Virus record (IMG/VR): IMGVR_UViG_3300028610_000182
Location: 1 to 28,292 of that record
Length of the DNA stretch: 28,292 bases
Direction: 5' to 3' (one strand)
Source of the DNA: a virus
The translations under genes and the position numbers were made by a program. Below are positions 2,330-27,627 of this stretch, one piece after another (the stretch's first letter is position 1; every line of letters starts with the position of its first letter). A model generated the notes under the pieces. That model had not been told where the DNA came from and did no database searches. It saw only the letters and a list, made by a program, of their open reading frames with translations.

Positions 2330-2376
2330 AGAGATTGCCCAATCAGTAGCAGACAATGACCCCATTGACTGGGGAT

Positions 2377-2381
2377 GGGAG
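2377..2381 (+). promoter_or_regulatory. ribosome-binding site deciding the sigma gene start
   Basis: GGGAG lies seven bases before GTG 2389 and favours that codon over the upstream in-frame ATG at 2356, which lacks such a site. Confidence 0.5.
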
Positions 2382-2388
2382 AATCAAG

Positions 2389-4179: not shown

Positions 4180-4180
4180 T

Positions 4181-4462
4181 TTATTCTCCTTCGCAAGTAG
4201 CCTCGAACTGTTCATTGTGCGATACGGTTAGCTCTATCATCAAGCTGATGTAGTCCTTCAGCACCTTGTCGTTGATCCCTATTCGGGCCAACAGGTGCGG
4301 ATTTATTGCTTTGATCTGTCGTTGTTCTTCTAATGTGATGTCGTATAGCGTCGGCTTAATGGGGTAGCATAATGGCTCGACCAAATCATTGGCCGCACAC
4401 CCCCAGCTACTTCCCCCAATCGCTAGAATCAGACAGGTTATCAATACCCTTGAACTCGTCAT
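4181..4462 (-). CDS. o-spanin candidate (Rz1-like outer-membrane lipoprotein)
   Basis: From ATG 4462 the product has 93 residues, with a signal-like opening MTSSRVLITCLILAIGGSSW followed by Gly-Cys (Cys22), a plausible but imperfect lipobox. The mature part is Pro-containing at first (EPLCYPIKPTLYD) and then helical. The gene begins 56 bases inside the i-spanin gene in another frame, after GGAG seven bases upstream, which is the classic nested Rz/Rz1 arrangement. The protein would be lipidated and anchored in the outer membrane and would fuse the two membranes with the i-spanin at the last step of lysis. It is longer than many Rz1 proteins. The call rests on architecture more than on sequence likeness. 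Confidence 0.68.
   Translation of the reverse strand: MTSSRVLITCLILAIGGSSWGCAANDLVEPLCYPIKPTLYDITLEEQRQIKAINPHLLARIGINDKVLKDYISLMIELTVSHNEQFEATCEGE
4186..4191 (-). promoter_or_regulatory. ribosome-binding site deciding the SPFH gene start
   Basis: AAGGAG on the minus strand stands six bases before GTG 4179, inside the end of the o-spanin gene. It decides the GTG as start. Confidence 0.6.
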
Positions 4463-4691: not shown

Positions 4692-4923
4692 CGTCGAGGT
4701 CCCTCTCCTGAGCCTGTGCTTCCGTCCAATCTATCGGCCCTGTCGTAATGGTACGTAGCACCATGTTGACAACACCTACTCCGAACATGATCCAAGGGAA
4801 AATGTGCGGAGCTATTACGGAACTCAACGTGGGTATGAGACCCATCGTTGCGTCCAGTAGCGCGCCCCCGATTGTCAGGATATTGAACCAGACTGTCTTG
4901 GATTTATACCAAGGCTTCTGCAT
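4684..4923 (-). CDS. holin candidate, 79 aa membrane protein
   Basis: The N-terminus QKPWYKSKTVWFNILTIGG is followed by two hydrophobic stretches, about residues 11-30 and 38-60 (APHIFPWIMFGVGVVNMVLR), then a short TTGPIDWTEAQ tail. The opening WYKSKTVWxN and the late VPW...NxxLR pattern are common in small phage membrane proteins annotated as putative holins. It sits immediately before the spanin pair and shares a TAATG junction with the upstream gene, as expected in a lysis cassette. A holin sets lysis time by permeabilising the inner membrane. A second candidate lies at 7540-7773; which one forms the hole cannot be told from sequence. Confidence 0.62.
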   Translation of the reverse strand: MQKPWYKSKTVWFNILTIGGALLDATMGLIPTLSSVIAPHIFPWIMFGVGVVNMVLRTITTGPIDWTEAQAQERDLDDV

Positions 4924-5168
4924 TAGTCTGCAATCAAACCGTGTAGACGCAGAACTGCAAGGATCGCATTGATCTTGCCTGCGTTCGAGCCCACTGCGGC
5001 CTCTAATTCATCGACAGTCGGAGTAGCACTGGTAGTCAGTGTGTCCCCGGTGAAGGTCGCCCCGTTAAGTGCGTCTACCAAAGTAACGATAGCTGCGGCT
5101 TGCTCCCCTATCTGGGGGTTGTCTACCTTATCGATTAACTTAGCGTCTGCTTCTGATGGTTGTGTCAT
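4923..5168 (-). CDS. small head-fibre-like virion protein, 81 aa
   Basis: The C-terminus INAILAVLRLHGLI matches the helical trimer-forming end of phage head-fibre proteins (phi29 gp8.5 type, Phage_fiber_2 family), and TVDELEAAVGSNAGKINA is the usual lead-in. The N-terminus IDKVDNPQIGEQAAAI resembles the start region of a second protein in this window (23086-23547), which ends in a similar helix. At 81 residues it could be only a trimerisation unit or a capsid-bound stub. AGGAG in the gap 5169-5176 precedes the ATG, and the gene follows the tailspike gene directly. An alternative is a tailspike-associated small protein or chaperone. Confidence 0.6.
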   Translation of the reverse strand: MTQPSEADAKLIDKVDNPQIGEQAAAIVTLVDALNGATFTGDTLTTSATPTVDELEAAVGSNAGKINAILAVLRLHGLIAD

Positions 5169-5176
5169 GGTATCTC

Positions 5177-7030
5177 CTATAAGATGGTGATGTCGGCGTC
5201 GTAATCGACGTTGGTTTCTTCAAGGTTGGTGCTCATGAGTTCAGCTTTCCAAGCACAGAACATCTCATTGGTCCCGGCGGGTGCCACGGTCAAGAAGCCT
5301 ACTGTAACCTTCATGCTATTGGCTGCGGTACCCGCTGCCAGCGTGTAGTTGAAGTCAAAGATGCGAGTGTCAGCAAACGAGGTACTGACCTGTGATATGA
5401 TGTTGCCTTCCTTGGTACTGGCTCCTTCGATCCAACAAGCGTACAGTATCTCGCCCATCTGCACAGTGGATATGGCGTCAGCCTTACCACTGTACATCAG
5501 CTTGATCAGGAACCCGGCTGCACCCGGCCCGATGTTGTCGATCACAAAGAGGTCCTTCTGGGTACTCTCTGCTACATCACGGGCGTTACCTGAGATGACC
5601 TTCCATGAGAGGGAGCCGAGGGTAGACCCTGTGTCATCGTCCAATGGCCTGATCATGAAGTCATGGAAATGGACGGGACGGTCTGTGTAGTCCTTCATTG
5701 CAATGTCACAGTTGATTCTGTTGGGACCAATGTCCAGTTCAGTGGTGCCCCCGAGCTTGCCGAAGCCAGCCGGGTAGGTACCGAACATATGGAACTCGTT
5801 GTTGCCTGAAGTGTTCGCGCCTGTGCTGTTGCCAGCCGAGAACGTCATCACCGTGATGACCTGATCCGTGTTGTTGTGGACCTCAATGAAGCCATTGAAG
5901 TAGTTGTCCTGCGCAGCACCAATCGGGTAAGCAAGGTCAGTATCTGTCTCTTGCCCCTCATTCATCTGACCACATCGGATAGCCGCACGTGTCGGCGACC
6001 CGGTTACAACCACTCCCTTCTCAATTTTGAGAGCGGTGTACTGGTTACCATACGAGGCATTCATCTGAATGGCACAGGTGTTGAAGTCAAGGATCGTGAT
6101 GCCTACGAGTGAGTTGGCATTTGCGTCAGTACTATGCTCGATGCCGACATCACACTGGGTGATGCCAATATCCGAGAGGCTGTTGTAATATGTCGTGTCA
6201 CCAAGGAAGTTGCCACGTTTACGGCCAGCACTATGGATGTAGATACCCGGTGATCCATCACCTACAATGGTCTTCTGGTGACCAATGATCCGTAGTGCAG
6301 TGATGACGTTGTTCTGTGTGGATACGCCATGATCTGCATCAGTGTAAGCACCGGTCGGACTTGGTCCGAGCAATAGTATGCCGTTGGTGTACGTATGAGT
6401 CTTATGGGCTAGTTGCCCCATCTTGCCGTTGAAGTAGTTGAAGAGGCCCCAGACTTGGACCATTGGGATGTCCACATCTGTGTATCTCTGCAATCTCAAG
6501 GCAGGGTTGAGTGTCAGGACCTTAGCGGTACCCGTACCGGCGTTGCCGCCCAAGGCGATGGTGCCTTCAATAGCTGCGTTACCCGCCATGTTACAAAAGG
6601 CAGGCCAGCCTGAGTCCACGGCGCTGTTGAACGCTGCCGTATCATCGGTACTGCCATCAATCTTGGCATCGTACCGCATCACGTCACCATAGTAGAACTC
6701 AAGGTTCACTGCTGTGATGCTCCTCGCAGTCTCAACGGCATGTTGAGGCCAGAGAACAGCACCTACGGTATCCTGTGTGAGGGCGTTGGTGACGCCTGCA
6801 ATGAGAGCAGCCTGTGCTAGTGTGACTGGCTCTTGGTTGTTGACTGCGTCCACCAGATTGACCAGCCTACCTGTGCTGTTCATGTCAATGTTGGCGTTCA
6901 TGACGTTGGGGGTCGTGCCATCCCTTGACAGAGTGTTCTCCATCGCAGCCTCAGTCAATGTGTTGTTCGCATTGATTGCAGCTGCTGATAGATAACCTCC
7001 AGCGAGGTTGGTGAGTGTGAGTTTAGCCAT
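5177..7030 (-). CDS. tailspike / tail fibre protein with pectate-lyase-like beta helix
   Basis: This 617-residue protein opens with a tail-fibre N-terminus: LTNLAGGYLSAAAINANNTL, then ENTLSRDGTTPNVMNANIDM, a virion-anchoring pattern seen in many podovirus tailspikes. At residues 120-134 comes YDAKIDGSTDDTAAF, the start motif of pectate-lyase-superfamily beta-helix domains of tailspikes and depolymerases. Residues 230-450 have repeated short beta segments with Asn, Gly and Asp turns. The last 150 residues look like a C-terminal receptor-binding or trimerisation region (RPVHFHDFMIRPLDDDTGS onward). It should form the trimeric receptor-recognition and possibly glycan-cleaving organelle. The ATG overlaps the upstream stop (TAATG). 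The substrate is unknown. Confidence 0.85.
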   Translation of the reverse strand: MAKLTLTNLAGGYLSAAAINANNTLTEAAMENTLSRDGTTPNVMNANIDMNSTGRLVNLVDAVNNQEPVTLAQAALIAGVTNALTQDTVGAVLWPQHAVETARSITAVNLEFYYGDVMRYDAKIDGSTDDTAAFNSAVDSGWPAFCNMAGNAAIEGTIALGGNAGTGTAKVLTLNPALRLQRYTDVDIPMVQVWGLFNYFNGKMGQLAHKTHTYTNGILLLGPSPTGAYTDADHGVSTQNNVITALRIIGHQKTIVGDGSPGIYIHSAGRKRGNFLGDTTYYNSLSDIGITQCDVGIEHSTDANANSLVGITILDFNTCAIQMNASYGNQYTALKIEKGVVVTGSPTRAAIRCGQMNEGQETDTDLAYPIGAAQDNYFNGFIEVHNNTDQVITVMTFSAGNSTGANTSGNNEFHMFGTYPAGFGKLGGTTELDIGPNRINCDIAMKDYTDRPVHFHDFMIRPLDDDTGSTLGSLSWKVISGNARDVAESTQKDLFVIDNIGPGAAGFLIKLMYSGKADAISTVQMGEILYACWIEGASTKEGNIISQVSTSFADTRIFDFNYTLAAGTAANSMKVTVGFLTVAPAGTNEMFCAWKAELMSTNLEETNVDYDADITIL

Positions 7031-8159: not shown

Positions 8160-9785
8160 TTAAGCTCCATCTCTGGCTAAGTCTCCAGTTATCTGACTGG
8201 CCTCGGGTACCTCAGGTGAGGTTGGCCGTACGCCCAGCTCCCGTAGATTATCGATCTCTGTCTGTGTCCTGTTCCTGTTGATCTGTGTCAACCGGGCCTC
8301 TACCTCGCCTGCTTGACGATTGTACCGTTCACGGGCAAGCCATCTTGCTTGTCCAGCGTTGAGTCCCTCGGCGAGCGCCTCTGCTAGTTCTATCTGCGCG
8401 TCTTCAGGCATCCCTACGGATACCTCTTCGACCATGAAGCGGAGGTCACGCATGGTGCGCCGTGCCTCTGCACCTGCGACTATGACAGCATCCTCTATGT
8501 CCACGTTACTGCGCATGAACTGTTCCAAGGTGTCTTCCACATTGTCTATGTGGACCTTGGTCTTGTCGGAGACCTCTCGCACATACTTGGCGTACGCTGC
8601 TTCGTCAGCGAAGCGTTCTGCTACGCCTGATGCGAGGTCACTGGTGATGACCTTGTCCAGCTCTGACTGTTTGACATCAAAGATTCTGGTCATGAACCTC
8701 TTCACACTAGCACCTTGGTCAAACCCCTCTATCTCTTGAACGAGGTGCTGTATCTCATGCAGTATAGTACTGCGCCCAAGGTCATCGTCGAGATCAGTGA
8801 GGATATCGACAGTCTTGCCCCTGCGTGTGGTCCTTGTTTGGCCCATCAATCCTGAGTCCTCTGCGACCTTATTGAAAACTCTGTAGTTACTGGCACCATC
8901 CACGGTATCCTCAATACGATTGACATTGAAGGTAATGGGGACATTCCGCAACTGCGGGTATGCCTCGAATAGCGTGGGATGAGTGAACAACTCATCCAAT
9001 GTACCTCGGATAACGCCACTGTCACCCTTCTTTATTCCTTGTGCTCGGGCGAGCGCCGTGAGCTTCTCACTGTTCACCACGCTGTCTGCGTCACTGAGGA
9101 CGTACTTGTAGATGTCCGCCCCCGCCTTGTCCTGTTTCCCTGTCTTCCACCAGCCAGTCTCTTGCCACACATCAATGTCGCTCTTGCCTACCTTGGACAT
9201 GCCTTTGGCCGTGTCCAGTGTACCAGTGAGCGCCCTCGTGGCTACTCTGCCACCCACAACCATGGACTTAACGGCTGCTACGCCTGCTGCCACCTTGGGG
9301 ATCGTTCCTAGTCCCTTGACTACGCCACCGGGAGAGAATAGACTGCCTACGATGAAGCCGGGACTATGTACGTCAGCCTTGAACACGGTCTCACCAATAG
9401 AATCGGTGCCACCGGGCACGTCCATGACATCTGTCCACCTGAAGGGGTCCTTGCCCCGAGTCTTCATCCATCTGAAGCCTTCGTACCCTACCATCTCAGC
9501 CATGGCCAAGAGGTCCACGGCAGTGCCGAGGTTACCAGATATGAAGCCTTTGCCTACACCCACTGTGTTGTTCTTCAGGTCCTCAAGAACCAACCCAGCC
9601 TCTTCCCAGTTACTGGGACCGGTCGGCTTCGGCGACGGGGCTAGTACTTCCTCATTGGTTTTGTTGAACGTCTGAGTATCACGATCAAGTTTAGTACCCA
9701 GTTGGCTCTCATTGAGCACTGGTGCTGACGGCTGTAACGCTGCGTCGAACGCTGCATCACGTTGCTGTTGTCCTTGATCTGACAC
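8160..9785 (-). CDS. putative ejected virion protein with zincin-like (HExxH) polyvalent domain
   Basis: The start is GTG 9785, overlapping the upstream stop (TAGTG). The 541-residue product has a disordered N-terminus (1-60), a Gly/Ala/Val-rich stretch (75-200) that could touch membranes, and a region at about 207-360 resembling domains of large polyvalent phage and conjugative-element proteins: WWKTGKQDKAGADIYKYVLS, then LFTHPTLFEAYPQLRNV, then STILHEIQHLVQEIEGF with His343, Glu344 and His347. A second motif, RERYNRQAGEVEAR (486-498), includes Glu494/Glu496 as a likely third zinc ligand. This HEIQHxxQxxEGF...AGEVEAR pair marks zincin-like domains believed to be injected with DNA. Position after the ejection proteins supports that. 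Confidence 0.72.
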   Translation of the reverse strand: MSDQGQQQRDAAFDAALQPSAPVLNESQLGTKLDRDTQTFNKTNEEVLAPSPKPTGPSNWEEAGLVLEDLKNNTVGVGKGFISGNLGTAVDLLAMAEMVGYEGFRWMKTRGKDPFRWTDVMDVPGGTDSIGETVFKADVHSPGFIVGSLFSPGGVVKGLGTIPKVAAGVAAVKSMVVGGRVATRALTGTLDTAKGMSKVGKSDIDVWQETGWWKTGKQDKAGADIYKYVLSDADSVVNSEKLTALARAQGIKKGDSGVIRGTLDELFTHPTLFEAYPQLRNVPITFNVNRIEDTVDGASNYRVFNKVAEDSGLMGQTRTTRRGKTVDILTDLDDDLGRSTILHEIQHLVQEIEGFDQGASVKRFMTRIFDVKQSELDKVITSDLASGVAERFADEAAYAKYVREVSDKTKVHIDNVEDTLEQFMRSNVDIEDAVIVAGAEARRTMRDLRFMVEEVSVGMPEDAQIELAEALAEGLNAGQARWLARERYNRQAGEVEARLTQINRNRTQTEIDNLRELGVRPTSPEVPEASQITGDLARDGA

Positions 9786-17787: not shown

Positions 17788-20276
17788 TTCTTTTTACTCA
17801 CTTTGTAGTTGGTGTGCCAGCCGATGATATGGCTGTCTTTAGTCGCAGTTCCGTCAAAACGAAGTTGAAGTACGCGTCCACGTCCCCGGACCTTATTCCG
17901 GGTGACGACAACAGGGTATCCATCCACATCCCCCGCAGCCACAGGGATAAAGTTTCGAGGATGACGGTACACTTCGGATTGAACACCGATTTTCCCTGAT
18001 ACACCGTAGTTACCAGCCGTGCCCGTAAAAGCACGCTGGGTTGCTGGGGTTGCTGGGTCATTCCACTCTATTGCCTCTGTCCAATCCCATAGGGCTGTCA
18101 TCTTCGTCGATGACGGGTTATCTGCATCCCAGCCTCCACCACCGTTGGCGGTGAAACCCGTCTCAGTCCTGCGACTGAATACAGTGATGATAGGTGTCTG
18201 TCGCCGACGTTGGAAGTCGCCGATGTTGTCGTATCCTGTGACTAGGAACGGCAGTGGGGACTCCACTCCATCAAAGTCGAGGTAGTCAGTCTGCTGGAAG
18301 TCAGCGATCTGCACCGTGGTGGTGCTGGCCTGATACAGGCACTTGATCTTCTGGTTCTCTGAGCTGTCGTCAGCGTCAGAGATAGCCACGATGGACAGCA
18401 GCCCGAAGTTGGTGGCTGAGTTATCGGTGAATGTGTAGATGTACCACGCAGACTGCTTGGTATCAAAGACCAGCATCTCCGTGTGCTTGTTTGATGCAGC
18501 GGTAGCCCCAATGAGGAAGTACAGCCGCAGCTTCGCGTCGTCATAGACGACCTGCACACGCTCCTGCTGTGCTGTGGTGTACTGGTTCCACTTGGTCTGG
18601 ATCGTGTCAACGATCATGTTCTTGCCTTCAAGGAGACCGGTGAACTGGTTGGCTCCGAAGATGTAGATACCGGAGGGACCGGTGGCTATGCCCCCGTCCT
18701 CCAGTCTGATCGTGCCTGTGGCACTGTTGAGATTGGCCATGGACAGCTGCTTGACCTTGAAGGTAGTGGCTGTGAATATGTTCCCTCTGCCACCTGATAT
18801 CTCCCAAGCACCCTCGGTGCCTACGAGTACGAGGCTGTTGCCTACGACCATCATGTCCACGATGCCGTTCATACCGGGCACCACAAGGACACCACCATCA
18901 GCTGGTGTCAGCTCATTGAACTCCTCATCGGTCGGGTCCTGCCGTTGATGGCACTCCCCATACGCTGCGGGTGTCGCAGCAATGCGAGAGAAGAATACGT
19001 GGTCAGCAAACTGGCCGTCGGCCATGCCTGCGTACCAGATTCGACCGGCGTAGAAGCCGATAGCTCGGAAACCTTTCTCGACGTTGGAGCCGTCGCTCTT
19101 GGTTAGAGCTACCGTGGTCCCGAGCTGTCCCAGTGTTAGGTCTTTAGTAGTCCAAGAAACCCAGTTGTATGGTGCAACTACTGTGATCTCAAAGGTGTTG
19201 GCGGTCTTGTTGGCTATTGCATACGTGCCATCGAAAGACCAACCGAGTATCACAGGACCCCATGGGCCTCCCATTACGTACGTAGATGATTGTCCTGAGA
19301 CGGTAACTGAGTTGCCATCTGAGTATCCATGGCCTGTGACTGTGATCACCACCGTGGTCGCAGGCGGAGCCAACGTCCAACTTTCAATGGGCTGTGCTAC
19401 GCCGCTGCCTGAGACATCGGTCGCAAAGGTAGTATCAAAAGGATCAAGGAACAGCGCACCCTGTGGGGCTGTGCTGTTTCCAAATACTTCAGCGGCATAC
19501 TTGGTTTCGTTTAGTGCGCGTGTCCCGACCTTCTCAACGGCAGTCGAGGTGCTCTCGTCCACGGTACGTTCGTAAGCCGTATGCCATATGCCATTCTTAG
19601 CCGGGGACTTAGCTGCGTCCGCAATGATGGACGTGATGTCCGCATCATTCCATCCTCTGTTCCGCAGGTTGTACCTGTGGTCGTCGAGTATGGGATCATC
19701 TGCGGGCTCTGTGGTCACACTTATGCCATCGTCGATCCCCTCAAAGTCTCGATAACTGACCTTGATCCTTGTTGCAGTGAACACATCCGTCACTGAGTTG
19801 TACGAAACGTAGAAAGGCTTGAGGTAAGGACCAGACCCCATTAGATGACCTCTGCCCTGTGTGAATCGGACGTGCTCATCTCGAATGTTAGCCGCAGTGG
19901 GTGTGTCCTCTGCCGCAAAGGCTTCAACATCAACGATATTGCCATGCCACGAGTCACTTGGAATCGTGTCATCATCGGTAAAGTACAGTCTCTGTCCTAT
20001 CTGGTGTACGATGAAAGACTTGTCGGGGTCGCCCCCGACATTCTTCCACTTGTACATCTGATGTGCCTGTGTGGCTACCATCGTGGGGATGGTGTGCGCA
20101 ACGCCCGCGCTCGTCTCGACCGCAAGCCCTCTGCGTCTCTTACGGGTGCCATCAGCGAGCAGCTCGTAGTTAGCCTCGTCGGTCGTGAAACCGTCGGGCC
20201 AATTTACTTCGCTGATCTCTGTGTTCAGGCCACCTGAAAGGTCAAAGGTAGACTTCTCGGTCTGTTGTTCGGGCAT
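17784..20276 (-). CDS. tail tubular protein B (T7 gp12-like nozzle)
   Basis: The 830-residue protein opens STFDLSGGLNTEISEVNWPD, then DEANYELLADGTRKRRRGL, a hallmark of T7 gp12-type nozzle proteins, which form the end of the short tail. Later landmarks are FYAGRIWYAGM and the VGTEGAWEISGG region of the beta-propeller-like part. Residues about 307-367 hold an inserted beta unit with GHGYSDGNSVTVSG and TANTFEIT, a type of Ig-like or adhesion-like repeat found in phage structural proteins; it may decorate the tail surface. The gene starts one base after the stop of the 132-residue gene and is followed by the acetyltransferase. Confidence 0.92.
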   Translation of the reverse strand: MPEQQTEKSTFDLSGGLNTEISEVNWPDGFTTDEANYELLADGTRKRRRGLAVETSAGVAHTIPTMVATQAHQMYKWKNVGGDPDKSFIVHQIGQRLYFTDDDTIPSDSWHGNIVDVEAFAAEDTPTAANIRDEHVRFTQGRGHLMGSGPYLKPFYVSYNSVTDVFTATRIKVSYRDFEGIDDGISVTTEPADDPILDDHRYNLRNRGWNDADITSIIADAAKSPAKNGIWHTAYERTVDESTSTAVEKVGTRALNETKYAAEVFGNSTAPQGALFLDPFDTTFATDVSGSGVAQPIESWTLAPPATTVVITVTGHGYSDGNSVTVSGQSSTYVMGGPWGPVILGWSFDGTYAIANKTANTFEITVVAPYNWVSWTTKDLTLGQLGTTVALTKSDGSNVEKGFRAIGFYAGRIWYAGMADGQFADHVFFSRIAATPAAYGECHQRQDPTDEEFNELTPADGGVLVVPGMNGIVDMMVVGNSLVLVGTEGAWEISGGRGNIFTATTFKVKQLSMANLNSATGTIRLEDGGIATGPSGIYIFGANQFTGLLEGKNMIVDTIQTKWNQYTTAQQERVQVVYDDAKLRLYFLIGATAASNKHTEMLVFDTKQSAWYIYTFTDNSATNFGLLSIVAISDADDSSENQKIKCLYQASTTTVQIADFQQTDYLDFDGVESPLPFLVTGYDNIGDFQRRRQTPIITVFSRRTETGFTANGGGGWDADNPSSTKMTALWDWTEAIEWNDPATPATQRAFTGTAGNYGVSGKIGVQSEVYRHPRNFIPVAAGDVDGYPVVVTRNKVRGRGRVLQLRFDGTATKDSHIIGWHTNYKVSKKK

Positions 20277-20675
20277 TTACGCTTCCTTGGCTTCCGCTAT
20301 TGCTGCGTTCTCCGCCGCGACGGCGCGCAGAATGGCGGCTTCTTTATCCTCAGTCGTCATATCCTCAGCCACATCGGGGACTTCAGTGGCGACTTCAGTG
20401 GCGGCTTGGTTGCTGCGTGCGTTCCTCTTGGCGACGAGTTCGGACTCGTCCCAATTACGTGTGACGTAGAGGGTGATCTTCTCTTGAAGCAGCTGCCTGT
20501 TGGTCCATTGACCTACCAGTAGCTCGGGTATGATCGCATCACTGCGGTCGGGGTTCGGACGTGCGAAGTACATTGGGTGTCCTCGCGTTTGAAATATCTC
20601 CCACTTTTTGCCAGCGGCATCTATGTTGTTAGTGATATTGGTCTCTCGGTCAAGATTGAATACTTTTTCGGTCAT
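20277..20675 (-). CDS. hypothetical protein between tail tube genes, 132 aa
   Basis: The N-terminal half (KVFNLDRETNITNNIDAAGK, then WEIFQTRGHPMYFARPNPDR) looks folded and ends around WTNRQLLQEKITLYVTRNWD. The C-terminal 45 residues are a low-complexity Ala/Glu-rich tail (EVATEVPDVAEDMTTEDKEA and AAENAAIAEAKEA). Proteins of this size often sit between gp11- and gp12-like genes in marine podoviruses, but I know no function. AGGAGT just upstream, overlapping the gp11 stop, gives a good start. The adjoining stop and start with gp12 suggest coupled expression and perhaps a role in tail assembly. Confidence 0.75.
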   Translation of the reverse strand: MTEKVFNLDRETNITNNIDAAGKKWEIFQTRGHPMYFARPNPDRSDAIIPELLVGQWTNRQLLQEKITLYVTRNWDESELVAKRNARSNQAATEVATEVPDVAEDMTTEDKEAAILRAVAAENAAIAEAKEA

Positions 20676-20685
20676 GGTCTGACTC

Positions 20686-21444
20686 CTATTTTCTGCCGTA
20701 GTTCGGCCTGTTGTCGTTGTCGGTGTTTTTGATTATACGTCTTTGGCGATTGGCTCTAACTTCAGCCCGTCGCCGGGTTCGATCTACCTCTGCTGTCAGC
20801 CCATCCTTGAACAGGTCAAAGTACATGGCACGACTCTCCCGCTTCAGCAGCACCATTAGGTGTTGCGGAAGGTTGGGACTGGTTGCGTCAGCGAGGGAGA
20901 GCGTCGGCTTGGATACGCCGTACGCGAGGGATTTGGAACTCTGGAGGTTGGTCTCCAGCGCACTGTCGTAGGCATCGAAGACGAGGTCATCGTAGCCATC
21001 GAGGACAGTGTAGTAGCGGGGTGCCTGATCGTTCTTGATCAGCACCACATGTGAGGAATCGGGCAAGGTCATGGCCTCAGTGGTCGAGTCACTGAGTGTG
21101 CGTCTCGACGTGCGATCCATAAACTCCTTGGGGTCCACGTAGTTGAGGTCCTCGTACTTCTGGTCACCTGCTGCGGTGACCTTGCTGTCGTACTTGACCC
21201 ACTGAACGGCATGGAAGCCTTCAGGGCGCTGCATGATCGTGGGTGTCGTGGACGACGTGGCCGTCAGGCGGATAGTCGTCTCGTGAAGGTGCAGGTCGTA
21301 TCCATCTACGATCTGATCGAAGACATCCTTGAGTACGTCTGCGCACTGCAAGGACTCAACCGTATCGGATATGGAGTTGACGCTATCACCGTCAGCATCA
21401 CTCAGGATGTTCTGCACGATTGAAAGGACTGTATCTTTAGCCAT
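20686..21444 (-). CDS. tail tubular protein A (T7 gp11-like adaptor)
   Basis: The 252-residue protein matches the build of T7 gp11, the gatekeeper ring between portal and nozzle: an N-terminal helical part (SIVQNILSDADGDSVNSISD, then ESLQCADVLKDVFDQIV), a middle beta domain (DLHLHETTIRLTATSSTTPT, then PEGFHAVQWVKYD, then YYTVLDGYDDLVFDAYDSAL), and C-terminal helices (LPQHLMVLLKRESRAMYFDL, then EVDRTRRRAEVRANRQRRI). The PEGxxxxxxVxYD and DGYDDLVFD patterns are characteristic. Its start overlaps the end of the sulfotransferase-like gene, so the unusual cassette is inserted directly upstream of it. Confidence 0.9.
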   Translation of the reverse strand: MAKDTVLSIVQNILSDADGDSVNSISDTVESLQCADVLKDVFDQIVDGYDLHLHETTIRLTATSSTTPTIMQRPEGFHAVQWVKYDSKVTAAGDQKYEDLNYVDPKEFMDRTSRRTLSDSTTEAMTLPDSSHVVLIKNDQAPRYYTVLDGYDDLVFDAYDSALETNLQSSKSLAYGVSKPTLSLADATSPNLPQHLMVLLKRESRAMYFDLFKDGLTAEVDRTRRRAEVRANRQRRIIKNTDNDNRPNYGRK

Positions 21445-22069
21445 TGTACCACCAAAAGTCGTAGCCTAACTGGTCCCTGTAGAGGGGTGCCAAGTTGGCG
21501 CTGTGTTCTGTTATAAACCATTGCCAGAGCGTACCATAGTAAATGATATCAGCAATGGCGTCCATATCCCGGTTGTCTATCGCTGCTCGTAGTGGCGTAG
21601 GGCCACCGGTATGCGAATAGCTACCTTCATTGAGTTCTACTCCCGCCCAATTACCAAGAGACCGGATCGGGTCCTCCACCCTATGGATGTAGGGGTCATG
21701 GTGATCGATGTGGTACTGTTGGATACACCGGTATAAATCCAAACTGTTACCGATGTTCCTCAGTGCCTGTGGCTCATCGTTGGGCAGGTTCGGGAGCTGT
21801 GTCCTGTAATGCGTACAGAAGTTGTGCAGCGGATCGCGTACCACCAAGAAGTGTCGCGTGGTTGGCCACGTTTCCGTTATCTTCGCCGACCAGTTCTCAT
21901 GGCCGAGTGTACAGTGCCCCCATATGAGGTCACTCTTCTCGTCGATATGATTCTTCGTCCTACGCGTGCTTTGCGCGTGGAACCCTGCGTCAATAAAGGA
22001 GTCACGTACGTACCGTGTACCGCTATGCGGTGTGGTTGACATGCTCCAGCGTGGTGCGTACTTTTGCAT
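21437..22069 (-). CDS. sulfotransferase-like protein, 210 aa
   Basis: The first strand and loop RWSMSTTPHSGTRYVRDSFI contain a sulfotransferase-type phosphosulfate-binding loop (TPHSGTRY, residues 13-20). The second landmark is FLVVRDPLHNFCTHY (75-88), the usual RDP...S/T region that contacts the 3'-phosphate of PAPS. The middle is helical with several His and Tyr. It is shorter than typical cellular sulfotransferases (about 250-300 residues) but keeps both cofactor sites. The start could also be ATG 22042, but that would trim the first beta strand. It overlaps the 3' end of the pyruvyl-transferase-like gene by 47 bases and the gp11 start at the other end. It probably sulfates a glycan or protein; the acceptor is unknown. 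Confidence 0.7.
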   Translation of the reverse strand: MQKYAPRWSMSTTPHSGTRYVRDSFIDAGFHAQSTRRTKNHIDEKSDLIWGHCTLGHENWSAKITETWPTTRHFLVVRDPLHNFCTHYRTQLPNLPNDEPQALRNIGNSLDLYRCIQQYHIDHHDPYIHRVEDPIRSLGNWAGVELNEGSYSHTGGPTPLRAAIDNRDMDAIADIIYYGTLWQWFITEHSANLAPLYRDQLGYDFWWYNG

Positions 22070-22658
22070 CGAATCTCACATTCGCCTCTCGGCATTCGTC
22101 TAGTGTTGCGTCTTCTATCTGGTAGAACTTGGCATGATCAGTTCTTTTTCCGGGTCTGAGTATGATCTTTCTGCCAAGCAGCATGGCCCAATACGCACCG
22201 TGGTACGAGTCTGTAACCACTGTCTCGCCTGAGCCTATCTGGCGTAACGCTTCATCTAACGTACCGATGTTGTGTATGCCACAATAGTAGGGGACTGCGG
22301 CCCCGGTAATCGGGTATTCCTCGTCGAACAAGGGAGACATGCAGCTTACACATGGCACCCAATCGGTGCCCGGTACTTCCCTGTCTCTGGTCCCGATCAA
22401 CGCAAAGTCTTTGAGTTGTTCTCTGCGGTGTGTCATGCCTAGTCCCCAAGCTATCTGGACACCGGGCAGCGGGTACCGCATGGTCCGGGGTGAGCCGCCA
22501 CCACCTACGATGTAAACATCTGCTGGGGGTGGTGCTTCCACCATTGTCCTCTTGATGTCAAAGAACTCGACAGGACAGTAGTCGAAATACTGAATGGGCG
22601 AGCAGCTCAGATCGCCGACGTTAGCTGTCTCAAACTGGTATAGATTTATAATCTTCAT
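22023..22658 (-). CDS. polysaccharide pyruvyl transferase-like protein, 211 aa
   Basis: Landmarks of the PF04230 type (polysaccharide pyruvyl transferases, GT-B-like) are NVGDLSCSPIQYF near the start (NVGD at 13-16), VYIVGGGGSP (48-57), FALIGTRDREV (85-95) and TVVTDSYHGAYWAMLLGRKI (146-165), the last equal to the family's ISxRxHGxxxAxxxGxPxI motif. Family members transfer pyruvate ketal, or in some branches sugars, onto cell-surface glycans. It is short for the family (often 300 or more residues), lacking part of the middle. It overlaps the ParB-like gene at its start and the sulfotransferase-like gene at its end. Acceptor and donor are unknown. Confidence 0.75.
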   Translation of the reverse strand: MKIINLYQFETANVGDLSCSPIQYFDYCPVEFFDIKRTMVEAPPPADVYIVGGGGSPRTMRYPLPGVQIAWGLGMTHRREQLKDFALIGTRDREVPGTDWVPCVSCMSPLFDEEYPITGAAVPYYCGIHNIGTLDEALRQIGSGETVVTDSYHGAYWAMLLGRKIILRPGKRTDHAKFYQIEDATLDECREANVRFDAKVRTTLEHVNHTA

Positions 22659-23082
22659 GCAGATATTGTCCTTTGGTCTTAGGATATTGGTAGGTCTCTG
22701 GTAAGACTACGTTGGCTATGTGTGGCCGGTAGAAGGTGGTGTCACCTCCTCGGTATGTAACGATTCCATCAGGGAAATACGGTGGGAGATTGTCCCATTG
22801 TACCCGCTTCTTGGGGTCGAACTCACACTCTCCTGTAACAATACATGGAACAGTACTCCATCCAAGCATCTTGCACGCTTCCAAGCGATTGATGCCTTGC
22901 ATGACGTGATGGTCTATGTACTTCTTCGGTCGGTGGTTCAATACTATGATAGGATTGACAAGACCGTTCTCGCGGATGTTCTCCGCGAGCGCGGCTTGTA
23001 CTATCTTTCGTTTAGTCCTGTCCTTCACCGACAGCCTGATGGCGTCGATGGGGTAGTTCGGGCAGAACCAAATGTCAAACAT
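22630..23082 (-). CDS. ParB-like nuclease-domain protein, 150 aa
   Basis: Residues 34-82 show the ParB N-terminal fold: ENIRENGLVNPIIVL, then HHVMQGINRLEACKMLGWST followed by VPCIV. The GINRLEA box corresponds to the phosphate-binding GxRRxxA box, with Asn in place of the usual Arg/Glu/His. No DNA-binding helix-turn-helix follows, so this is a stand-alone catalytic-type domain (ParB/sulfiredoxin superfamily, members of which bind or hydrolyse NTPs or act as nucleases or kinases). The C-terminal half (DNLPPYFPDGIVTYRGGDTT onward) is not recognised. It heads a three-gene cassette with two predicted glycan-modifying enzymes, overlapping the second gene by 29 bases. Confidence 0.72.
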   Translation of the reverse strand: MFDIWFCPNYPIDAIRLSVKDRTKRKIVQAALAENIRENGLVNPIIVLNHRPKKYIDHHVMQGINRLEACKMLGWSTVPCIVTGECEFDPKKRVQWDNLPPYFPDGIVTYRGGDTTFYRPHIANVVLPETYQYPKTKGQYLHEDYKSIPV

Positions 23083-23085
23083 TGC

Positions 23086-23547
23086 TTACGATGCGGTCAT
23101 CAGGCCATGCTCTTCCAAGACATCCAGTGCGCTATTGACAGCGGCCCTGTTTTGTGTGATGTCCGTAATGAAGGTAGCATGATCAGCGATTAGCTCGGCG
23201 TTCAGTGTAACCTGAGTGGCATGGTCAGCCGCCAACTCTGTTAGCATTGTCACGATGTCAGCAAGCGTGCCTTCGATCTCGTCGAAAGTTTGACAAGTTT
23301 CTAAGCCTGTCGGCGCATCGCCATCTGCTATCGTCTGAGCACCATCCGGTGAAATACCCGGATCATCTGTCGTGTACGTAAGAGTGACACGCGTCGGCGT
23401 TGTAGCCGTGATCGTGGCAATATTACCTGCCGTCAGGGTAGCCGTTAGGGTACTGGCCGGATCAGCAATGTTGGCTTGTCGGTCTCCAATCTGCGGATTC
23501 TGTGAGGAATCTGCTAGTTTGGATTTGCTTTTGATCAAAGCAGCCAT
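23086..23547 (-). CDS. head-fibre-like virion protein, 153 aa
   Basis: The N-terminus KLADSSQNPQIGDRQANI carries the same NPQIG box as the 81-residue protein at 4923-5168. Residues 30-80 are a Thr-rich beta segment (LTATLTAGNIATITATTPTR) suited to a small Ig-like domain. The last 75 residues are helical and end NSALDVLEEHGLM, the trimer-forming end typical of phage head-fibre proteins. AAGGAG precedes the ATG. Position after capsid and decoration genes fits a capsid-surface fibre or a minor head protein. Confidence 0.65.
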   Translation of the reverse strand: MAALIKSKSKLADSSQNPQIGDRQANIADPASTLTATLTAGNIATITATTPTRVTLTYTTDDPGISPDGAQTIADGDAPTGLETCQTFDEIEGTLADIVTMLTELAADHATQVTLNAELIADHATFITDITQNRAAVNSALDVLEEHGLMTAS

Positions 23548-23568
23548 ACATTTTCTCCTTGTTAAAGA

Positions 23569-23586
23569 GTGGGGCTCTCACCCCAC
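23569..23586 (-). terminator. hairpin after the second duplicated decoration gene
   Basis: GTGGGG (23569-23574 read on the other strand) pairs with CCCCAC around a six-base loop, and UCUUU follows on the minus strand. It is a weak to moderate terminator or a mRNA 3'-end stabiliser between the decoration gene and the head-fibre gene. CACTAGGGTT next to it (23586-23595, plus strand) recurs at 24195-24204. Confidence 0.55.
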
Positions 23587-23594
23587 ACTAGGGT

Positions 23595-24155
23595 TTATAC
23601 TGCTAGGGCTCTGCCCATCGAACCAGTCGGGGGGCGGTAGGTAACGCTAACGCGAAGTTTGCCAGCCGTGAAAGCTGTATCAAACTCGCCAGTGATGATC
23701 ACGTCGGAGTTCGACGTGGCACCGGCCACTGCTAGGTTCGAGTCAGCTGCATCAGCGATCAACGCTCCGTCAAGGAGTGAAGTATCACCGATGTTAGCGA
23801 ACTCTGCCAGAAGCAGCGCATCAACTAAACCATTGGCATCGTCAACAATCTCGGTAGCTAGGCCGCGAGACCAAGTACCTAAATTGAAGTCGCCACCAGC
23901 GCCAGTCAAGGCAACCACACACTGTACTTCACCCCGCAAGAAGACGGAACCCCGAGGGATTACATGCGACTGCGGTGCGCCGGGATAACTTACACCCGTG
24001 GCAGTGGTCAGTAAGCTGAGAGGCTCTATCTCCAGTACGACGGTAACTTCACCGTTGGCACCGGGATAGACACCAGCTACTTGGTTGTCTACTGTATGCT
24101 TTTGAAACCCTACTACTAGACCGTCTGAATTGGTCCATGTATTGCCTCTACTCAT
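23595..24155 (-). CDS. putative capsid decoration protein, second tandem copy, 186 aa
   Basis: The start is ATG 24155, giving MSRGNTWTNSDGLVVGF, with GGAG (24163-24166) seven bases upstream; an earlier in-frame ATG at 24197 would run through the intergenic hairpin. The product is clearly paralogous to the neighbour at 24203-24766: both share MSRxNTWTNxDGLxVGF, PGANGEVT/QGANGEVT, HVIPRGS, the exact 18-residue block GTWSRGLATEIVDD plus flanks, LIADAADS and TYRPPTGSMGR. The strand-rich build and location after the major capsid gene suggest a capsid-surface or minor head protein. No family was recognised. Confidence 0.8.
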   Translation of the reverse strand: MSRGNTWTNSDGLVVGFQKHTVDNQVAGVYPGANGEVTVVLEIEPLSLLTTATGVSYPGAPQSHVIPRGSVFLRGEVQCVVALTGAGGDFNLGTWSRGLATEIVDDANGLVDALLLAEFANIGDTSLLDGALIADAADSNLAVAGATSNSDVIITGEFDTAFTAGKLRVSVTYRPPTGSMGRALAV

Positions 24156-24176
24156 TGTATTTCTCCAGTAGAAGAA

Positions 24177-24194
24177 GTAGCCCCGAAGGGCTAC
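24177..24194 (-). terminator. UUCG-loop hairpin between the duplicated decoration genes
   Basis: A perfect seven-base-pair stem (GTAGCCC/GGGCTAC, 24177-24183 with 24188-24194) carries a UUCG tetraloop on the minus strand and is followed by UUCUUCU. It may attenuate transcription after the capsid and first decoration gene, or protect the mRNA 3' end, so that those two proteins are made in greater amount. Confidence 0.6.
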
Positions 24195-24202
24195 CACTAG
24201 GG

Positions 24203-24766
24203 TTATGCCGCTATTACGCGACCCATTGAGCCAGTCGGTGGACGATATGTCACTGTCAGCCGGACTTTACCAGCGGTGAATACAGCGGTACCCCACGATG
24301 CGGTGATGACAACATCTGAATCAGATATTGCACCCGCAACTGCAAGGCCACTGTCCGCAGCGTCGGCAATCAAGTCGCCGTCTGCGATGTTCACGTCGCC
24401 AATATTAGCCAGCGTAGAGTCAGTGGATGTTGCCGCTTTCACGATACCATCCATGTCATCTACGATTTCAGTTGCCAGCCCACGAGACCACGTACCGATG
24501 TCAAGACCAGACGTTGTGCCAGAGGTGGCAGCAACGATGGTTTGAACGTCAGCGCGCAGGATGATTGATCCACGGGGGATCACATGCGCCTGTGCGCCAG
24601 CGATATCAGCAGCGGTGTCAACCAGACCAGCTAGTGTGATCTCTTGGCTGAACGTGACCTCTCCGTTAGCGCCTTGAAAAACTGCGCCAACATCGTTGTC
24701 TTCCGTGTGCAGACCAAAGCCGACGATTAAGCCGTCCTTGTTGGTCCATGTGTTTGCTCTACTCAT
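24203..24766 (-). CDS. putative capsid decoration protein, first tandem copy, 187 aa
   Basis: The protein starts MSRANTWTNKDGLIVGFGLH at an ATG with AAGGAG upstream, directly after the major capsid gene. It has alternating strand-like segments and the conserved blocks GTWSRGLATEIVDD, LIADAADSGLAVAGA and VTYRPPTGSMGR, shared with the next gene. About half or more of the positions agree between the two copies by eye. The strand-rich build and the slot next to the capsid gene fit a virion surface protein made in large amounts. I do not recognise a named family. Confidence 0.8.
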   Translation of the reverse strand: MSRANTWTNKDGLIVGFGLHTEDNDVGAVFQGANGEVTFSQEITLAGLVDTAADIAGAQAHVIPRGSIILRADVQTIVAATSGTTSGLDIGTWSRGLATEIVDDMDGIVKAATSTDSTLANIGDVNIADGDLIADAADSGLAVAGAISDSDVVITASWGTAVFTAGKVRLTVTYRPPTGSMGRVIAA

Positions 24767-24777
24767 GATTGTTCTCC

Positions 24778-25734
24778 TTAGACTTGGTCGTCGTCAGTTA
24801 GAACGCAGACGAGGTTTTCGGGACGGTACACCTTAAGACCGTAACGAGCAGTCGTAACATACTCTTCACGCTGCTTGTTGATGTTGTACTGACCATCAAC
24901 CTTAGGCATCTGACGGAATGCGCCCATGAATGGGAGCACGTCAGGCACTGCGGCAGAGAAAAAGATGTTCGCCTTACCACTCGCAGTTGTGACACTGGAG
25001 ATGGCTTCGTTCGCGGTAGGTAGGTAGTTCGAGACGTAGAAGTCGAAGCCGAAGATGTTCTTGATGAACCTCATGCCGCTGCCGATTCCTGTTTCGATGA
25101 TGCCTTCCCAACGAGGGTTGTTGCTGATATTGACAATGTTCGTCAGAGTATTGAGTTCATACTCGACGGACGGGTCAACGATAGCGATCAAGCTAGTGCT
25201 CTGGACGTTGGCCTTTTTAAGGGCGAACAGAGCCTTAGCTGCGTCTGCTACGGCGAATGTTTCGTTCGTGCCTGTACCAACGAAGCGATGCTCTGCTCCA
25301 TTGATGCTATTGGTGTTCGCGGCGGTTTGACCACCTGAAGCACCACCAGCAGCGAGAGCCAGAACGTCCGTCTCAACCTTTTCCGCTAGGGCGCGGGCCT
25401 GATATGGGACGAACTTGGCTTCCAACTGTGAGGCGTAGAACAAATCTTGCCGAGCTTTTTCCGTGATGTAGTGTCCACTGGACAGATACTCAGAGATAGT
25501 GAAGGCGAACTCACCCGTGTCAAGCGCATCGAATACAACTTCTGTATCTTCAACGTAGTCACGAACGGTACTCTCACCAATCGACGGGATAGTGAACTGG
25601 TCACCATCTGGAAATTCACTCAGCCAGTTTACCCAGCCTTGCGCTTCCAAGTCGTCTTGGAGGACTTCTTTCAAAGAAGAACTCCAAACCTCTGAGCGTC
25701 TTAGGACACCAGTATTACCTGTGTTCATAGACAT
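24778..25734 (-). CDS. major capsid protein
   Basis: The 318-residue protein lies directly after the scaffold gene and opens with VLRRSEVWSSSLKEVLQDDL, then DGDQFTIPSIGESTVRDYVE, a podovirus coat N-arm followed by the strand region of the HK97 fold. Later segments include FTISEYLSSGHYITEKARQD, a long spine-like helix (SQLEAKFVPYQARALAEKVE), SLIAIVDPSVEYELNTL and the C-terminal REEYVTTARYGLKVYRPENL, typical of late capsid strands near the 5-fold. Length and gene order fit a T7- or N4-type coat protein. AAGGAA stands upstream of the ATG. The two genes downstream probably decorate this shell. Confidence 0.88.
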   Translation of the reverse strand: MSMNTGNTGVLRRSEVWSSSLKEVLQDDLEAQGWVNWLSEFPDGDQFTIPSIGESTVRDYVEDTEVVFDALDTGEFAFTISEYLSSGHYITEKARQDLFYASQLEAKFVPYQARALAEKVETDVLALAAGGASGGQTAANTNSINGAEHRFVGTGTNETFAVADAAKALFALKKANVQSTSLIAIVDPSVEYELNTLTNIVNISNNPRWEGIIETGIGSGMRFIKNIFGFDFYVSNYLPTANEAISSVTTASGKANIFFSAAVPDVLPFMGAFRQMPKVDGQYNINKQREEYVTTARYGLKVYRPENLVCVLTDDDQV

Positions 25735-25753
25735 AGGTTGATTTCCTTATTAC

Positions 25754-26500
25754 TCAGTTTTGGGATTTGAACTTGTCCCCGAGTTCCATCTGGTCCTTGT
25801 ACATCTGACCCTGAATCTTCGGATCACTCCAGAACTTCCGTACGCCAACCTCTTTCTTGAGCTTGTCGTAGTAGACCTTCGTGTGGTGTCCGTCGATTAC
25901 CTCGTCCGCGCCCGAAGGCGTGACTTGGGTGTTGATGCCAGCAAGACTTGAGATGGCAGGTTGGGGACTCTTGGTTGTTGGACCAATGTTCATCAGCTCA
26001 GTAAAGGCTTCGGGACTCTTCTCTCCAAGTTCGGTTAATTGAGCTACCGTTAGGTTAAGCTCTTTCGCACGCCCTTCCAGATAAGCGCGGGCCGCATCTG
26101 CGTCCCCTTCGACCTTATCTAGTACGGTTTGATTAGCCTGCTCACGATTGGACAAGCGGGTCTGCTCATCGGTCTCGCCTTGCATGATGTTCTTGATCTT
26201 TTCTGCGAGAGCTTCCTCGGAGATTGGTTTGTCTCCTGCGGGTGCTCCCTCTGGGTTACTGCGAACTGCTTTTATCAAATCAGCCACCGTAGCTGATTGA
26301 TCGCTGGCTCCTTCCAGCTCGGCTACCTTTTCACGGGCAACCTTGTTCTCTCCTTCGAGCTGTTCAACATGCTGGTCACTCTTCAGTTTACCAGCGGCAA
26401 GGTCTTCAATAGTCTTGAACTTCTTGCCTTCACCCACGAGCTGGTCCAGTGCGGACCCGCCCTCGTTACTAACGGTCGTAGCATCGAATACATCGGACAT
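25754..26500 (-). CDS. capsid scaffolding protein
   Basis: The 248-residue protein is acidic and almost wholly helical, with KFKTIEDLAAGKLKSDQHVE, then QLEGENKVAREKVAELEGAS as a coiled coil at residues 28-65, low-complexity linkers rich in Ala, Pro and Glu, and a basic-acidic C-terminus (YYDKLKKEVGVRKFWSDPKI) that would bind the coat protein. This build, plus the position directly before the major capsid gene, identifies a scaffold of the T7 gp9 type. The strongest ribosome-binding site of the window (AAAGGAGG) precedes it, in line with the need for many copies. Confidence 0.88.
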   Translation of the reverse strand: MSDVFDATTVSNEGGSALDQLVGEGKKFKTIEDLAAGKLKSDQHVEQLEGENKVAREKVAELEGASDQSATVADLIKAVRSNPEGAPAGDKPISEEALAEKIKNIMQGETDEQTRLSNREQANQTVLDKVEGDADAARAYLEGRAKELNLTVAQLTELGEKSPEAFTELMNIGPTTKSPQPAISSLAGINTQVTPSGADEVIDGHHTKVYYDKLKKEVGVRKFWSDPKIQGQMYKDQMELGDKFKSQN

Positions 26501-26507
26501 GGTCTGT

Positions 26508-26515
26508 CCTCCTTT
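26508..26515 (-). promoter_or_regulatory. very strong ribosome-binding site of the scaffold gene
   Basis: AAAGGAGG on the minus strand, seven bases before ATG 26500, is a near-perfect Shine-Dalgarno sequence and overlaps the stop of the upstream gene. Confidence 0.75.
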
Positions 26516-26765
26516 ACGGTAATAGTTTGATTATTTCCTTAAGCGTTCTCCTACGCTCGAACAGCTTGGCAACTTTACGTTCCCAACCCTCTCCTTCGTA
26601 GGCTTCCTCGGAAGTGTAGGTCTTCTCGACCTCCTCTTCCAGAATGGATGTGAGACGCCGACTCATCAGCGTCGAGGCTTCCAGAGCTTTCTCGCTCTTG
26701 GCCTTAGCCTCGTCCCGCTCGGAGCGGGGCAGGGCTCTGTCTTCTTTGAACCATCGGCTGTCCAT
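26514..26765 (-). CDS. small charged helical protein, 83 aa
   Basis: The product opens MDSRWFKEDRALPRSERDEA and is rich in Glu, Lys and Arg throughout, with two predicted helices (EAKAKSEKALEASTLMSRRL and WERKVAKLFERRRTLKEIIK). Small genes of this kind often stand between portal and scaffold genes of podoviruses; I know no function. Its ATG overlaps the stop of the 32-residue gene (TAATG) and it runs into the scaffold ribosome-binding site. It may take part in head assembly, which is inferred from place only. Confidence 0.75.
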   Translation of the reverse strand: MDSRWFKEDRALPRSERDEAKAKSEKALEASTLMSRRLTSILEEEVEKTYTSEEAYEGEGWERKVAKLFERRRTLKEIIKLLP

Positions 26766-26863: not shown

Positions 26864-27627
26864 TAGTTGTCAACCAGTATCAGGTCGAAGCCACCTGAGA
26901 CATCAGCGGCTGCGCCTACTGTGACTGCTTCTAAGATGATGTCCGATTGTGCGACGAATGCCTTGTACGGTTTGAACTCACGCTTGAAGTCAATGCCACC
27001 ATCGGGGTCAAGGCCAAAGCCATCGACCGTATGAACGATGTAGGGACTCGCGTTGTTCACCACCTTGAGGAGGATATCCAAGTCGGTGGGCTCTCCGCCG
27101 CCGAGGTTCTTGATCGCCCAATAGTTGGTCATGTACGCCGTCTTGCCAGAGGGCACTGTGTAGAACGCTTGATGCGCCTCGTCGTCCCCGACAAGTATGA
27201 TCGCGTAGTCTTGGTTCTCGGCTGTGTTATGTAGCCGGACAGTGGAGTCAATGGCCACACTCGATTCCATGCTGAAGGAATTGACTCGCTGAAGTGCGGT
27301 GCCAAGGGTCACCTTGGTGGTTGTATCCGTGGCGTTAAGGAGAGCGGTCTGATTGACCACATCGAAGTTCGCATCAAGTCCGATGACCCGAACCGTCTTG
27401 CCTCTGCTGGCTACTTGGTCGGTGGTCTGACTGATGGTCGTCATCAGGGCAGTGGCTGGGCGAACGGCAGCTGCGGATAGCGAGCTGATCTCTTCTGCGC
27501 CACCACTGGTGACGGCGCGATTGCGTCCGTACTTGTTGACGGATGCAACACCCGGATAAACTCCGAGGGCGATCTTCAGGTTGTCATCCGCTAGGTTCTG
27601 TGCTAGGTACGGGGCGATCTTGGCCAT
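26863..27627 (-). CDS. putative virion protein between portal and scaffold, 254 aa
   Basis: The protein opens MAKIAPYLAQNLADDNLKIA. Beta-rich parts follow: GKTVRVIGLDANFDVVNQTA, TTTKVTLGTALQRVNSFSME, DYAIILVGDDEAHQAFYTVP and SGKTAYMTNYWAIKNLGGGE. The last third (TDLDILLKVVNNASPYIVHT, then FKREFKPYKAFVAQSDIILE) continues strand-like, ending GGFDLILVDN. The pattern resembles jelly-roll or decoration-type virion proteins, but I recognise no family. It is coupled to the portal gene (TAATG) and to the 32-residue gene, so it is likely a structural or assembly protein of the head. Confidence 0.75.
   Translation of the reverse strand: MAKIAPYLAQNLADDNLKIALGVYPGVASVNKYGRNRAVTSGGAEEISSLSAAAVRPATALMTTISQTTDQVASRGKTVRVIGLDANFDVVNQTALLNATDTTTKVTLGTALQRVNSFSMESSVAIDSTVRLHNTAENQDYAIILVGDDEAHQAFYTVPSGKTAYMTNYWAIKNLGGGEPTDLDILLKVVNNASPYIVHTVDGFGLDPDGGIDFKREFKPYKAFVAQSDIILEAVTVGAAADVSGGFDLILVDN

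Follow-up and report, generated by a model that had tools for sequence, protein, structure and literature searches.

Analysis of a 28,292-base virus contig from IMG/VR (IMGVR_UViG_3300028610_000182; hereafter the window, meaning the whole of this stretch), a fragment of a T7-like podovirus, revealed a cassette of three minus-strand genes within 21437-23082 that encode a one-domain ParB-like protein, a PF04230-type protein resembling polysaccharide pyruvyl transferases, and a protein of predicted sulfotransferase (ST) fold. Across other viral loci the ParB-like gene stays the same while the genes beside it change (PF04230-type, ST, glycosyltransferase or fibre gene), and the slot that they occupy, which mostly extends from a small conserved gene to the tail adaptor gene, is a cargo site able to hold an HNH endonuclease or nothing. 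We tentatively prefer to read these genes as a modular tailoring cassette in the late virion operon that acts on a glycan or residue of the virion surface. The three genes, in order of transcription, are as follows.

22630..23082, minus strand: one-domain protein of ParB/sulfiredoxin fold (predicted), 150 amino acids; first gene and constant member of the cassette; GxxR motif G63-x-N-R66
22023..22658, minus strand: compact PF04230-type (polysaccharide pyruvyl transferase-like) protein, 211 amino acids; N13-x-G15-D16, R91-D92, T149-D-S-Y-H153-G
21437..22069, minus strand: ST-fold protein (predicted), 210 amino acids; P14-H-S-G-T-R19 loop, R78-D-P-x5-T86-H87, invariant H52

All three open reading frames (ORFs) are open and intact, and the overlaps of 29 nucleotides (nt; ParB-like/PF04230-type) and 47 nt (PF04230-type/ST) reported in a preliminary description of this DNA are confirmed, as are the motifs that it had named, GGGG and DSYHGAYWAM in the middle gene and PHSGT and RDP in the ST gene.

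Distribution of the cassette in other phages

Loci for comparison (L numbers) were collected from IMG/VR with a profile of the middle protein, from which 80 were kept, and a scan with the ParB-like family added further loci; the ST family was also used for a scan. Single-sequence searches with the ParB-like protein (IMG/VR) and with the ST protein (phage records and IMG/VR) gave no match, and relatives of both genes were reached only via the middle-gene profile. The cassette is held by three of the 80 kept loci (L015, L016 and L017). The borders of the slot in the window and the arrangements at the other loci are listed below, those recovered by the ParB-like family scan being marked as such.

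23086..23547, minus strand: small conserved gene, 153 amino acids; 5' border of the slot; paralogue at 4923-5168
20686..21444, minus strand: tail tube/head-tail adaptor gene; 3' border of the slot; phrog_7592 'tail protein' E=1.2e-54, with adaptor/tubular-protein annotations in phage records
L016: small gene, ParB-like, PF04230-type, ST, second ST
L017: small gene, ParB-like, PF04230-type, then adaptor
L015: ParB-like, PF04230-type, ST; record without a match to the major capsid protein of the window
L096 (ParB-like family scan): small gene, ParB-like, ST, adaptor
L097 (ParB-like family scan): small gene, ParB-like, ST
L093 (ParB-like family scan): small gene, ParB-like, glycosyltransferase of phrog_1962
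L095 (ParB-like family scan): small gene, ParB-like, fibre-like gene
L098 and L099 (ParB-like family scan): ParB-like gene upstream of terminase-like genes
L100, 1-1955 (ParB-like family scan): three tandem ParB-like genes, then an unnamed gene of 272 amino acids

Most slot partners of the ParB-like gene are enzymes of glycan type. Each of the five records with the ST family (the window, L015, L016, L096 and L097) has a ParB-like gene adjacent or one gene away, and the ST-family scan returned solely such records; this co-occurrence was partly found by inspecting the neighbours of known members, but the ParB-like scan, made without ST information, revealed neighbouring ST genes in L096 and L097, where no PF04230-type gene is present. 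The co-occurrence that the preliminary description had proposed to look for is conserved in other phages; the trio is not a fixed unit, since the ParB-like gene is constant and its partners are exchanged. The PF04230-type enzyme is also used without a ParB-like partner. The profile scan found 250 relatives of the middle protein in IMG/VR, and elsewhere such relatives lie among glycosyltransferase, FkbM-methyltransferase and nucleotidyltransferase genes or, in L002, directly after a major capsid gene; among 50 records, either from this phage group or with PF04230-type relatives, the ParB-like family occurs only in the three cassette records, with one more weak match inside a longer frame.

Two loci with major capsid proteins 82-85% identical to that of the window, L013 and L014, have no cassette; the slot contains an endonuclease VII-type HNH gene in L013 (5658-6008, PF02945 E=3.6e-25) and is empty in L014. 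A homing element was considered for the window and rejected, its slot having no nuclease (L013 does have one). Homologues of the small gene hold the equivalent position in L013, L014, L016, L017, L093, L095, L096 and L097. The tandem ST-fold genes of L016 (3012-4165) are 33% identical to each other, and upstream of the L015 cassette (5338-6476) lie three small neighbouring ORFs with N-termini that resemble twin-arginine signals.

In each cassette gene, synonymous change (dS) clearly exceeds replacement change (dN), and all three are constrained as proteins: dN is 0.25 and dS 0.89 for the ParB-like gene (window versus L016), 0.43 and 1.8 for the PF04230-type gene (window versus L016), and 0.52 and 2.0 for the ST gene (window versus L015), with 0.13 and 1.5 for the capsid control, dS being near saturation in several pairs so that the ratios are rough. 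Conservation is lower in the cassette proteins than in the capsid, with identities to the window of 39-64% for the ParB-like and PF04230-type proteins and 24-47% for the ST protein, as against 78-85% for the capsids of related podoviruses. Recurrence of the families together in other phages, together with these dN and dS values, rules out chance ORFs.

Position among the late virion genes

The minus strand of the window carries virion genes for a head-tail adaptor/connector (phrog_332, incomplete), the major head protein (phrog_267) and the tail adaptor (phrog_7592), as well as a tail appendage (phrog_8094) and an internal virion protein. An 8-nt overlap joins the ST gene to the adaptor gene, and a gap of 3 nt separates the small gene from the start of the ParB-like gene. 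No sigma-70-like promoter was found in 20000-26600, and terminator-like matches are no more numerous than expected by chance; the simplest assumption is therefore that the cassette is transcribed together with the late virion genes. The GC content of the cassette, 0.48-0.53, is close to that of the neighbouring genes. The tail tube adaptor named as a neighbour in the preliminary description is borne out by the phrog_7592 match, whereas the label 'head-fibre-like' given there to 23086-23547 is not supported, this small gene having no significant family match and being conserved at that place in related phages. Nothing similar to the window was found in a DNA-level search of phage records, and the adaptor protein reaches at most ~35% identity there, its matches including roseophages and OM43 phages.

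A single-domain ParB fold

The ParB-like protein matches PF02195 (ParB_N) with E=6.4e-7, above the Pfam cut-off, and its AlphaFold2 (AF2) model, built from a shallow alignment of 11 members, has a predicted local distance difference test score (pLDDT) of 80.8 and matches Noc, ParB, sulfiredoxin (Srx) and SbnI in Foldseek. The VIA Z scores are 8.6 for sulfiredoxin, 8.2 for SbnI and 7.9 for SerK (a free serine kinase) and ParB; with Z at about 7-8.6, membership of the ParB/Srx superfamily is clear and the nearest branch is not. Past the matched domain, which ends near residue 85, there is no ParB helix-turn-helix (HTH) and no C-terminal or dimerisation domain, so that the match, the predicted fold and the lack of an HTH agree with the stand-alone ParB-type domain first proposed. 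When bacterial and archaeal genomes were scanned with the family, the matches were all partial (roughly 50-70 residues), such as ordinary ParB or Noc would give, and no clear relative of this subfamily was found.

Within the GxxR P motif (Box II), G63 is present in 11 of the 11 members and R66 in ten, Lys replacing it in L100, while N43, N49, H50 and N65 are invariants specific to this family. Position 64 is I, L, T, Q, N or Y across the family; the GERR Glu of ParB is not kept there, nor is the sulfiredoxin Cys (0/11). Chromosome partition by a canonical ParB was rejected on the lack of an HTH and of the GERR Glu, and sulfiredoxin activity on the lack of a Cys at position 64 (G-C-H-R) in all 11 members.

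The Arg of GxxR is required for nucleotide binding, ParB-fold proteins may bind CTP, ATP or GTP, and very short one-domain phage ParB folds were described in a 2025 survey (PMC12704722). The window protein shares with the ParB/Srx superfamily (orphan short phage ParB folds, sulfiredoxin, SbnI and SerK) the single domain, Box II with its GxxR, and a helix and loop that resemble Box I (PMC12704722). It differs in having no GERR Glu or sulfiredoxin Cys and in its family-specific N43, N49, H50 and N65, and its gene is linked to transferases rather than to ParA, an HTH or a DNA methylase. The DdrB-like ParB domains of phage polyvalent proteins likewise have a ParB fold and are encoded by late genes beside virion structural genes, sometimes solo (PMC5512222); unlike these, the window protein is not part of a polyvalent fusion.

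A predicted sulfotransferase beyond Pfam detection

The ST protein has no sequence match in Pfam, PHROG, NCBIfam or the PDB; Pfam sulfotransferase models match none of the six members, PF00685 is absent from the record at E<=10, and the PDB sequence search gave chance KRas matches only, a search with the family profile adding nothing of value. The fold assignment comes from an AF2 model built on a shallow alignment of six sequences (pLDDT 82.8, predicted template modelling score 0.83). In Foldseek the first 37 PDB hits to this model are all sulfotransferases, the first kinase appearing at rank 38, and VIA returned sulfotransferases in 50 of 50 rows (Z 12.0-10.6 over 170-193 residues). The protein is accordingly predicted to belong to the 3'-phosphoadenosine-5'-phosphosulfate (PAPS) sulfotransferase fold, and the structure prediction that the preliminary description had called for supports its candidate, with most motif positions present.

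The P-x-S-G-T loop sits on the N-terminal strand-loop-helix of the model, with P14-H15-S16-G17-T18-R19 in place (G and T vary in 1/6). R78 and T/S86 are kept in all six members (Arg-x7-Ser/Thr), a separation of 8 like that between the Arg and the Ser that bind the 3'-phosphate in sulfotransferases. In the model, the P-H-S-G-T-R loop, H52 and R78-x7-T/S86 would fit a PAPS site, the loop His being unusual. The predicted fold, a loop of P-x-S-G-T form and Arg-x7-(S/T) are shared with PAPS sulfotransferases (tyrosylprotein sulfotransferase, SULT, NDST, StaL/Teg12 and curacin ST), from which the window protein differs in its length of ~210 amino acids, in its loop His for Lys/Arg and in lying beyond Pfam detection. 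The locus reveals what appears to be a sulfotransferase-fold subfamily missed by the sequence models used.

A distant PF04230 relative

The middle protein scores slightly under the PF04230 cut-off (E=1.1e-4, 22.6 bits; cut-off 25.3). All relatives tested match the model, those of L004 (37.0) and L019 (28.3) passing the cut-off and eight others falling under it. The family profile matches WbbZ (PDB 6x1l) with E=2.8e-6 and both ends in register, and the N-x-G-D motif and active-site His, invariant in 15 of 15 members, are aligned to WbbZ at both places. The protein is probably a divergent, distant member of PF04230, and the pyruvyl transferase-like label of the preliminary description stands as far as profile and motif place it near this family, with the window score itself under the Pfam cut-off.

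WbbZ is a proven pyruvyltransferase dependent on phosphoenolpyruvate (PEP), a phage (Caudovirales) copy is also active, and the motifs named for it are N-x-G-D (N29/G31/D32), R-x3-(S/T) (R121) and H226 (PMC10629545). In the window protein N-x-G-D, an Arg that precedes the second half and the His equivalent to H226 stand at corresponding positions; the protein differs in being shorter than the WbbZ chain, in not keeping R-x3-(S/T), in a T-x-S-Y-H-G-x-Y-W-A signature and in lying in a virion operon with no polymerase partner in the record.

Proposed function

We infer the substrates, the donors (PAPS and PEP), the virion as target and the helper role of the ParB-like protein as follows. The cassette would be an insertion into the late virion operon of a T7-like phage, would be transcribed along with that operon, and would supply an ST-fold protein that sulfates an acceptor using host PAPS and a PF04230-type protein that transfers pyruvate as a ketal from PEP, or a related group, onto a sugar; the one-domain ParB-fold protein would bind a nucleotide and act as a shared helper for whichever transferase is present, perhaps as a small kinase or as a regulatory or scaffolding subunit dependent on nucleoside triphosphates. 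The acceptor, a glycan or a residue, would most likely belong to a fibre or decoration protein at the virion surface, because the cassette is embedded in and overlaps virion genes, and the addition of negative charge would alter charge, adsorption or receptor range. The preliminary description had likewise suggested that the two enzymes modify the virion or the host surface and that the ParB-like protein might supply an activated donor; both ideas are conjectural. A stricter formulation, in which the single-domain ParB-fold protein is the obligate nucleotide-dependent partner of interchangeable enzymes that sulfate and/or pyruvylate virion proteins or glycans during assembly, seems to us doubtful. 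We know of no sulfated or pyruvylated phage particle, and such a virion would be the first.

Several observations weigh against the preferred reading. No glycosyltransferase family 2 and no APS (adenosine-5'-phosphosulfate) kinase was found in the 28-kb record, which is a fragment and was searched throughout for these two families, and a phage-made glycan acceptor is therefore not in evidence; either the host or the part of the genome missing from the record would provide PAPS and the glycan to be modified, or a protein side chain would be the acceptor, the ST fold being also that of tyrosylprotein sulfotransferases. The loop of the ST protein has His at position 15 in six of six members where Lys or Arg is usual (P-[KR]-x-G-T). 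The Arg equivalent to WbbZ R121 is present in 15 of 15 middle-protein family members with no Ser/Thr four residues on (0/15), the exact register around R-x3-(S/T) being uncertain because of gaps in that stretch, and the 211-residue protein falls short of the WbbZ chain (272 residues) by ~60 residues. The L015 cassette lies away from recognisable virion genes, in a record without a match to the major capsid protein of the window, and sequence does not predict nucleotide use in ParB folds (PMC12704722).

It is possible, and in our view less probable, that late in infection the enzymes alter the polysaccharide of the host surface, O-antigen or capsule, so that progeny are freed from the debris of lysed cells or superinfecting phages are excluded. 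Consistent with this, a Caudovirales wbbYZ locus yields pyruvylated O1 antigen in Escherichia coli (PMC10629545), large cyanophages carry surface-glycan clusters (PMC7824862), and PF04230-type relatives lie among glycosyltransferases in other phages; however, the cassette is embedded in and overlaps the virion operon rather than standing with early or lysogeny genes, and the record has no glycosyltransferase family 2. Position and overlap lead us to favour, tentatively, the virion over the host surface.

Selfish or neutral cargo, loosely linked in an insertion-tolerant slot and without a common pathway, appears unlikely: the HNH gene in L013, the empty slot in L014 and the variation of partners among relatives would suit it, but the cassette genes are under purifying selection, their partners are chemically related, and the same families are paired repeatedly in divergent phages, including L015 with no matching major capsid protein. 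We know of no nucleic-acid role for PF04230, which counts against the least probable alternative, that the three proteins serve DNA hypermodification or anti-restriction and have nucleotides or nucleic acid as substrates. Nucleotide binding and nuclease-like character are frequent among ParB folds, and sulfotransferases share the P-loop kinase architecture. Fusions of ParB-fold domains to methyltransferases and to domains of restriction type occur in phages and elsewhere (PMC12704722, PMC5512222), and guanylate kinases and a 5-hmdU (5-hydroxymethyldeoxyuridine) DNA kinase appear lower in the ST fold lists. Against this stand the sulfotransferases that head the PDB list and fill the VIA rows, an ST loop without the Walker lysine, and PADLOC, which found no defence system and only a weak match of the ParB domain to a methyltransferase model.

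Phage glycan-modification cargo is already known as a kind, and this gene set is a variant of it. In the open literature we found no paper on phages with polysaccharide pyruvyl transferase and sulfotransferase, nor with ParB, glycosyltransferase and sulfotransferase, many subscription papers lying outside the search. For virion tailoring, the nearest parallel is the glycosylation of mycobacteriophage virions (Che8 and relatives), in which, according to the summary of Freeman 2023 given in PMC11256854, phage enzymes are thought to place glycans on capsid proteins; the enzymes there are glycosyltransferases, not pyruvyl- or sulfotransferases. If the virion is the target, charged tailoring would join the short list of virion glycosylations and offer a simple genetic handle on adsorption. 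The recurrent position beside virion genes and the interchangeable partners make questions about ParB folds and transferases testable.

Flanking genes and other features

The two copies of the small gene, both on the minus strand, differ in setting: 4923-5168 adjoins a large fibre-like gene (5177-7030), and 23086-23547 adjoins the cassette. Between the capsid gene and the slot, 23595-24197 and 24203-24766 (minus strand) are tandem paralogues of 200 and 187 amino acids that are decoration-protein-like by position; L013, L014, L017, L095 and L096 have a single copy.

An ARAGORN tRNA-Phe call at 27526-27615 (plus strand) is antisense to a coding gene and probably spurious. A 541-residue late protein at 8160-9785 (minus strand) contains the LPD23 domain of phage polyvalent proteins (PF18838 E=1.4e-6). 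A 175-residue protein with sigma-70 regions 2 and 4 and of a size like that of extracytoplasmic function sigma factors is encoded at 2356-2883 (plus strand; PF04542 E=1.5e-11, PF08281 E=1.8e-7), a phage sigma factor in a T7-like podovirus, and 3649-4215 (minus strand) encodes an SPFH/Band 7 domain protein (PF01145 E=1.6e-12), apparently an uncommon feature in a podovirus.

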